This document shows, piece by piece, positions 25,667 to 45,570 of a stretch of 64,000 bases of DNA. The stretch comes from Natronorubrum aibiense. GTDB taxonomy: Archaea; Halobacteriota; Halobacteria; Halobacteriales; Natrialbaceae. The DNA is taken from the NCBI RefSeq assembly GCF_009392895.1, contig NZ_CP045488.1, positions 1,860,001 through 1,924,000 of the forward strand. The letters run 5' to 3'. Position numbers and translations under genes: made by a program. The notes below the pieces were generated by a model. It searched no databases, was not told where the DNA came from, and saw nothing but the letters and a program-made list of their open reading frames with translations. Position 1 is the stretch's first letter. Each line of letters begins with the position of its first letter.

Positions 25667-25791
25667 CCACCGAGTATCGAGCACCCCGAGTGGTCACGTC
25701 GAAGGCTCGCTCGAGCGCCTCGAGATCCGGTACGTAGCGCCGTCCACCGATGGCGGGCCAACACCGATGGTCTCGGTGTCACTGGTGGCTC

Positions 25792-25982
25792 ATACGGTTT
25801 ACTGTAATTATACTGTCGGACAGCAGTCAGTGAGACGTCGGTCGCGAATTCGCGGCCGTCCTCGGGGATGACGGCCGCAGTAGCGCGACCGGTCTTCGAA
25901 TAGTTCTGTCCGGCAGTATCAATTATTGCCGATCGCCGACCCGTTCTGGCGATCGGCGGTACATAGTTACAGCAATCCGTAT
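25792..25982. mobile_element. composite inverted-repeat (MITE-like) element, outer boundaries
   Basis: The ends are ATACGGTTTACTGTAATTAT at 25792-25811 and, in reverse complement, ATACGGATTGCTGTAACTAT at 25963-25982, matching at about 17 of 20 bases. They enclose a second, inner 110-bp inverted-repeat element (25810-25919) and a perfect 10-bp-stem hairpin at 25928-25957. The right end touches the stop codon of the small exporter gene at 25982. No ORF is present inside, so movement would need a transposase in trans. The stretch 25667-25791 beside it holds nothing else recognisable. Confidence 0.7.
25810..25919 (-). repeat. 110-bp inverted-repeat element, copy 1
   Basis: Terminal inverted repeats ATACTGTCGGACAG / ATACTGCCGGACAG (one mismatch in 14) bound exactly 110 bp. 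Inside are nested stems: GGTCGCG with CGCGACC, and an apical 9-bp stem GCGGCCGTC with GACGGCCGC. In reverse complement it aligns end to end with copy 2 at 45393-45502, which is also 110 bp. Confidence 0.75.
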
Positions 25983-26506
25983 CACGCGAGGCCAAGCACG
26001 GAGACGCCGAACATCGAGAGGACGACCAGCACGACTGTCCAGAGTCCGATACTGACTGTCATCCACCCCGCGACAGCGCGGGCGGAGCTCCCGGCGAGTA
26101 AGGCGACGAGGGCGGCGATATGCACGCCGGTGAGTATCGGCCCGCCGACCGACAGTCCCGCCAATCCGTACCGATCCCACAGCTCCCGCGCTCGAGCGTA
26201 GCGTTCGTGACCGTCGTTCCCGTCCTGCTCGTCCGCCTCGGGATCGGCGCTGCGTCGTCGACCGCGCAGCCACCGCGAGAAGCGCCGGTGGAACGCGACC
26301 ACCACGTAGACCGAGCCGACGTTACCCGCGAACGCGACGAGTCCCGTCGCCACCGGATCGAGTCCCAGTCCGATCGCGACCGGAACGACGACGAGAATCT
26401 CGACCACGGGAATCGCCGCGAAGAGGAAGACGAGCACGTACTGGAGGACGCCGCTTGCGTCCTCGAGCATCGGACCAACGTCGACGAGCAGCGGTGTCAC
26501 GGTCAT
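25982..26506 (-). CDS. small multidrug-export family membrane protein (Sm_multidrug_ex, PF06695-like)
   Basis: This 174-residue protein has about four to five membrane segments: FLFAAIPVVEILVVVPVAIG near residues 26-45, then VATGLVAFAGNVGSVYVVVA, and two near the C-terminus (GLAGLSVGGPILTGVHIAAL). The early PVVE and the late GGP motif are typical of this family. ATG 26506 is used. The name is historical; transport of drugs is unproven. Confidence 0.8.
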   Translation of the reverse strand: MTVTPLLVDVGPMLEDASGVLQYVLVFLFAAIPVVEILVVVPVAIGLGLDPVATGLVAFAGNVGSVYVVVAFHRRFSRWLRGRRRSADPEADEQDGNDGHERYARARELWDRYGLAGLSVGGPILTGVHIAALVALLAGSSARAVAGWMTVSIGLWTVVLVVLSMFGVSVLGLA

Positions 26507-27501: not shown

Positions 27502-27765
27502 GCGAGCGATTTTGCGCTATCGGATCCAAACCGTCTTTGGAGCGGCTGCCATAGCATCGGCCGGCCGATGACGATTCACTCGCTCCGAGCCGGACTCGGC
27601 ACCCGGCGGTGACGAGCCCTATGAGTGCCGAGGCCTTTGAATCACTCAGCAGTCATTTCGCTCGAGTCACACGCTCAGGTTTGCGGCTCGAGTCGACACA
27701 CTGACGGACAAGTATTTGCCCACGCCCTGCGACGCACGTCGGTAGGGCCGAATGGCTCACATATC

Positions 27766-45267: not shown

Positions 45268-45392
45268 CGTCTGTGACTTTCATACTGACTGCTGTAAGTC
45301 AGTACCGGTGCAACCGCGACCACCCTTCGGTTGCACGATATATCGTTAGATCGCATCAGCCCACCCGAAAAAGTCAGCGGTGGTCAGCGCTG

Positions 45393-45502
45393 ATACTGCC
45401 GGACAGAACGATTCGCGCACCGATCGCACGCGACCGGTCGTCGCCGGAGGCGGCGAGCCGTGAGACGCGATCGGACGTTTACTGACGTTTGTCTGGCAGT
45501 AT
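45393..45502 (+). repeat. 110-bp inverted-repeat element, copy 2
   Basis: Ends ATACTGCCGGACAG and, in reverse complement, ATACTGCCAGACAAACG. The length is exactly that of copy 1 at 25810-25919. Outer conserved bases include ACTGCCGGACAGAAC, ATTCG and ACTGAC; the centre differs but is again self-complementary (GATCGC with GCGATC, then a longer stem with a GGA loop). The ORF-free content suggests a MITE or a structured RNA element. Confidence 0.75.
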
Positions 45503-45570
45503 GAGTTCCGACGGACTATACTGGACCTACCGGAGCGATTCACTCGCGTACGGGTAAATTACTATCAGAA

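Follow-up and report, generated by a model that had tools for sequence, protein, structure and literature searches.

The 64,000-nucleotide window analysed here, from the haloarchaeon Natronorubrum aibiense (contig NZ_CP045488.1, positions 1,860,001 to 1,924,000), holds two inverted-repeat elements of equal length, and the question is whether these are mobile DNA of the MITE type or copies of a structured RNA, two readings between which the original prediction made no choice. Direct reading confirmed the positions and lengths of the two 110-bp copies (25810-25919 and 45393-45502), and their ends match as claimed, the copies aligning over 110 columns when read on opposite strands. They are mutually inverted: the minus strand of copy 1 starts with ATACTGCCGGACAGAAC, as does copy 2. 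Since a target duplication accounts for the outermost base at either end, the element proper, here termed family A, spans 108 bp and not 110 bp. We consider it highly probable that family A is a mobile, non-autonomous, MITE-like DNA transposon, which would be moved by an enzyme acting in trans and whose hairpin would serve mobility. The features referred to below are as follows.

25811..25918, plus strand: family A element, copy 1 (108 bp, subfamily 1, terminal inverted repeats TACTGTCGGACAG..CTGTCCGGCAGTA; R1 covariance-model match of 123.8 bits)
25808..25810, no strand: TTA, target copy to the left of copy 1, which differs by one base from that on the right
25919..25921, no strand: right target copy of copy 1, TCA
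25838..25846, plus strand: left arm (TCGGTCGCG) of stem 2 in copy 1, at alignment columns 28-36
25884..25892, plus strand: right arm of stem 2 in copy 1, at alignment columns 74-82
25852..25860, plus strand: left arm (GCGGCCGTC) of stem 3 in copy 1, the apical 9-bp stem, at columns 42-50
25870..25878, plus strand: right arm (GACGGCCGC) of stem 3 in copy 1, at columns 60-68
25793..25981, no strand: family B element split by copy 1 (78 bp without the insert; its own target duplication TCA at 25790-25792 and 25982-25984)
45394..45501, minus strand (orientation chosen to put the AGTCA arm first, matching copy 1): copy 2 of the family A element, 108 bp long and of subfamily 2 (R1 match of 93.8 bits on the minus strand)
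45391..45393, no strand: left target copy of copy 2, TGA
45502..45504, no strand: right target copy of copy 2, TGA
45283..45355, no strand: family B-like element in a decayed state, close to copy 2 (bordered by TCA at 45280-45282 and 45356-45358; similar sequences occur throughout the genus, and a B-type terminal inverted repeat (TIR) is seen in relatives)

Copies, ends and target duplications

More copies exist than the two first noted: a covariance-model search returned 26 matches in the Natronorubrum genome, some sites being counted on both strands. Across the order, the model matched 31 of 146 evenly drawn Halobacteriales genomes, most strongly in the same family, and some of the matches outside the host's family were members of family D, described below. 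A pattern search detected paired ends in 8 of 21 genomes and none with a reversed control pattern, and a first catalogue compiled from fetched DNA comprised 131 family A copies. When both exact ends were required, a genome-collection scan yielded at least 120 stretches; the matches listed were haloarchaea, including Natrialba, Natronorubrum, Natronolimnohabitans, Halobellus, Halococcus and other Halobacteriales, together with one MAG labelled only Euryarchaeota. Viral contigs gave four single-end matches, and Haloquadratum plasmid PL47 gave no match to the element. Within the window, the TIR string alone was found five times at up to 3 mismatches compared to 3.5 expected, which is not significant, unlike the occurrence of paired ends. 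The element is non-coding, and nearly all copies measure 75-110 bp, with lengths clustering at 75-79, 95-99 and 106-108 bp. The two subfamilies, 1 with copy 1 and 2 with copy 2, agree in length and in both asymmetric arms (AGTCA.., AAC[GT]ATT); outside the host's family the same TIR often encloses unrelated interiors. In three loci (L221, L222 and L097) the inner part seems flipped with respect to the arms, as would result from recombination in the stem. Matching flanks surround family A copies in Natronorubrum and Natrononativus (L009 and L056), reflecting either an old shared insertion or a site hit twice.

The base to the left of ATACTG usually equals the base to the right of CAGTAT, with a T two positions out on the left and an A two positions out on the right. 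Shifting the boundary inward by one base gives an element TACTG..CAGTA flanked by TNA. Identical flanks were present in 35 of the 45 first-listed copies, which had been picked by their ends alone, in 97 of the 131 copies of the first catalogue (96 of these TNA), and in 115 of 146 copies from a wider sample of many haloarchaea; both larger catalogues admitted weaker copies by their flanks, so that their raw percentages lean upward. Under an assumed base composition, identical TNA flanks are expected by chance at about 0.0003 per site. The lack of identical flanks in about one quarter of the catalogued copies is attributed to decay. The 13-bp TIR itself is paired in 94.1% of cells.

The copy 2 locus lacks the element in all nine of the other Natronorubrum genomes. 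Neither window copy is present in relatives, but as their intergenic DNA is too diverged to give an exact junction, empty sites were read from nested insertions. Sequences like the right flank of copy 1 recur at many other sites; this flank is part of a family B element, B being a second set of elements with the TIR TACGG..CTGT, mostly 77-80 bp long and carrying identical flanks in 37 of 49 cases, all of them TNA. Family B adjoins both window copies: copy 1 is nested in one member, and a decayed one lies near copy 2. Removal of copy 1 and one TNA restores a 78-bp family B element that differs from another B copy by 4 substitutions and no gap. Reciprocally, removing a nested B element from an A copy in locus L095 leaves a gap-free 108-bp family A element. 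Both cases thus document, at single-base resolution, an insertion accompanied by a 3-bp duplication.

These junctions bear on whether the repeats are instead dispersed binding sites of a regulator. Each TIR is near-palindromic (CTGTCNGACAG being itself a palindrome), and lone 15-bp palindromes TACTGTCGGACAGTA do occur (L112, L126 and L370), possibly as collapsed elements or as independent protein-binding sites. However, target duplications and gap-free empty sites demonstrate insertion, and lone palindromes can be collapsed elements, which makes regulator sites a very unlikely explanation compared to transposon ends.

Covariation and decay of the hairpin

Folding beyond that of random sequence, as originally proposed, was borne out for both copies: scored as single strands against shuffles, z values were -6.7 and -7.9 for copy 1 and -4.5 and -2.9 for copy 2. 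Similarly, the replacement of a G-C by an A-T pair pointed out from these two copies recurs across the family, with 38 A-T and 36 G-C at column pair 31/79 of an 80-copy alignment. The conserved covarying stem also held, both subfamilies sharing one stem register. Taken together, the TIR, stem 2 (columns 28-36/74-82) and stem 3 (columns 42-50/60-68) are paired in 91.5% of cells in the 80 full-length copies, compared to 24-52% in controls with one side slid by 1-3 columns. RNAalifold applied to the mixed alignment gave a partly different fold, and the named structure was scored directly instead. Cells changed on both sides numbered 165, versus 62 in shuffles.

Because shuffles ignore relatedness, changes were also mapped by parsimony on a tree, which was built from 108 columns and is weakly resolved. 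On its internal branches, Watson-Crick pairing was kept or restored 22 times and broken 25 times, whereas on terminal branches it was kept or restored 13 times and broken 142 times (p=2e-8 for the contrast). The structure is therefore kept in progenitor lineages and not in resident copies, which fits a need for it in DNA-level mobility. Mispairs comprised 99 G.T and 95 A.C (column pair 36/74 excluded), which implies that neither strand is favoured. We read the hairpin as a DNA-level feature that is kept while the element is mobile and lost afterwards.

The strong predicted fold and the covarying stems are also what would be seen if a small RNA or a 3'-UTR element with a selected fold had spread as a repeat, and the element often lies just behind stop codons. 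Against this, G-U is tolerated no more than A-C, as the strand-symmetric mispairs show, pairs decay in resident copies, and no Rfam family reached threshold on either window copy. Moreover, the orientation of the element relative to host genes is random (27:30), which counts against a role in the transcript. We thus regard a structured RNA as extremely improbable. The RNA half of the original alternative is not supported by these results, pairs being freely broken in individual copies, and the MITE half is supported, given the many copies, the TIRs, the 3-bp TNA duplication and the gap-free empty sites. Elsewhere in the window, the only above-threshold Rfam match is the sR-tMet C/D-box guide RNA (RF02163, 73 bits) at 27563-27635 on the plus strand.

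Insertions at stop codons

To place insertions relative to genes, the flanks were joined to reconstruct each empty site, and genes were predicted by a simple codon-usage script for which these loci also served as the training set. Of 193 intact family A and B insertions, 58 (30%) fall precisely at a predicted stop codon, compared to 1.9% of matched TNA sites. A further 18% of insertions, versus 3.5% of matched sites, lie in the 60 bp downstream of the stop, and 13% versus 68% in coding sequence. For family A at non-coding sites, pentamer-matched controls gave a stop-codon odds ratio of 4.5, and in family B alone stops hold 15 of 30 non-coding insertions. TAG was used in none of 62 stop-codon cases, although it makes up a quarter of nearby stops; a TNA rule, which TAG cannot fit, requires this. 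Curated plasmid annotation, which is independent of the script's gene calls, revealed six exact stop-codon cases among about 19 annotated loci inspected: a CPBP protease, a PHP-domain gene, a VOC-family gene, a glycosyltransferase, a universal stress protein and tpiA. Duplication of TGA or TAA recreates the stop codon and so leaves the protein as it was. Both window copies lie off stop codons, copy 1 within the B element and copy 2 at a site classed as intergenic.

The excess at stop codons may reflect target choice, survival of harmless insertions, or both. If survivorship alone were responsible, any TNA would be hit and copies damaging genes or promoters would be lost. The five-fold depletion of coding sites agrees with this, as does the fall of enrichment with distance from 15-fold at the exact stop to 5-fold in the next 60 bp downstream, 2-fold in the 60 bp upstream of a start and 1.35-fold far from genes. 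However, enrichment at the exact stop is three times that in the next 60 bp (p=9e-7 with matched TNA-site controls), though insertions at both should be about equally harmless. Survivorship alone is hence a serious contender, to which we give somewhat less than an even chance.

For the transposon itself, we envisage that a transposase supplied in trans would recognise the 13-bp inverted repeats. The asymmetric subterminal boxes would probably contribute to recognition, as would the near-palindromic core. The enzyme would make a cut with a 3-bp stagger at a target that has TNA at its centre, and the element would be inserted between two TNA copies. Sites at gene 3' ends, above all TGA and TAA stops, are strongly over-represented, with the TNA copy rebuilding the stop. 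Resident copies would then decay, and mobile progenitors would retain the hairpin.

Related families, helper candidates and known systems

A further set of elements, family D, consists of 80-bp hairpins with the TIR TAGTAGCCATTGA and TA flanks in YTAG-like sites, present in Halomicrobium and others. Many near-identical copies were found in loci L244, L245 and L306-L312 (Halomicrobium) and L021, and one is nested in a family A element. The family A model matches family D with an E value of about 1e-9. Compared at the same offset, the subterminal boxes of family A agree with those of D at 12 of 18 positions (P=4e-4) and with those of B at 13 of 18 (P=1.5e-5), P values that are somewhat optimistic since copies had been oriented by their boxes beforehand. 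This suggests that similar arms are combined with different ends in families A, B and D. More speculatively, and in our estimate less likely than not, these families could represent a Halobacteria-wide class of 75-110 bp hairpin transposons whose transposase actively picks stop codons that the 3-bp duplication rebuilds. Such a class would be modular, family A (TACTGTCGGACAG, TNA), family B (TACGG..CTGT, TNA) and family D (TAGTAGCCATTGA, TA in YTAG-like sites) bearing different 13-bp ends on similar subterminal boxes (AAGTCA.., AAC[GT]ATT), such that a core could swap its ends and target rule.

No transposase gene with these ends was found among the loci and genomes searched. No long element with these ends came to light at DDE_Tnp_1 loci in eight genomes, in searches with single ends across twelve genomes from the genus and the family and with exact ends across 15 further genomes, or in the roughly 0.94 Mb of DNA that the genome-collection scan supplied. 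The TIR string likewise matched no paper in the collection searched. Three candidates were rejected. A 1.6-kb putative autonomous element in locus L385 resolved into two separate 79-bp elements flanking a host gene. The 5.9-kb end pair in L293 was taken as two elements, as one end belongs to a 98-bp element with matching flanks; the other end has a similar, decayed partner about 100 bp inside. ISNpe15, beside an element in L477, appears to be inserted within that element and has its own TIR.

The domain families PF13340 and PF13359 are associated with transposases that make TNA or TWA duplications. The IS1031 group of the IS5 family, with which DUF4096 (PF13340) is associated, targets TNA and shares the 3-bp TNA duplication with family A, but PF13340 occurred in none of the 146 Halobacteriales genomes. 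PIF/Harbinger-type elements have a 3-bp TWA target and resemble the present elements in their T-N-A-like 3-bp duplication and their MITE derivatives, but PF13359 (DDE_Tnp_4) was equally absent from the same set. Like MITEs in general, family A is short, non-coding, multi-copy and non-autonomous, with TIRs and a target duplication; it differs in that the DNA searched yielded no autonomous relative sharing its ends. REP/BIME-type palindromes are likewise short dispersed hairpins near gene 3' ends, from which family A is set apart by its discrete TIRs and target duplication.

By description, the closest published kind are the A-type small mobile repeats (SMR-A: HqIRS42, HqIRS43 and HqIRS55) of Haloquadratum walsbyi, reported in 2011 with a mobilisation that was considered enigmatic (PMC3119063). 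Both are about 110 bp long and non-coding, with prominent inverted terminal repeats and many copies per genome; both have repeats unrelated to known transposons and no known helper, and both are found inside other mobile elements. SMR-A elements are reported to make no target duplication and to prefer near-terminal palindromes of PATEs and IS605-type elements (PMC3119063), unlike family A with its 3-bp TNA duplication and stop-codon excess.

Altogether, the duplication, the ends and a target rule are now defined for an SMR-A-like class that has gap-free empty sites and is broadly distributed, which turns the missing transposase into a concrete search problem. This helper and the target preference are the points worth pursuing. 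When an element inserts at a stop codon and its duplication recreates that codon, a compact genome is enlarged in a simple way with its proteins unaltered; this illustrates how a transposon could distribute hairpins downstream of genes genome-wide.
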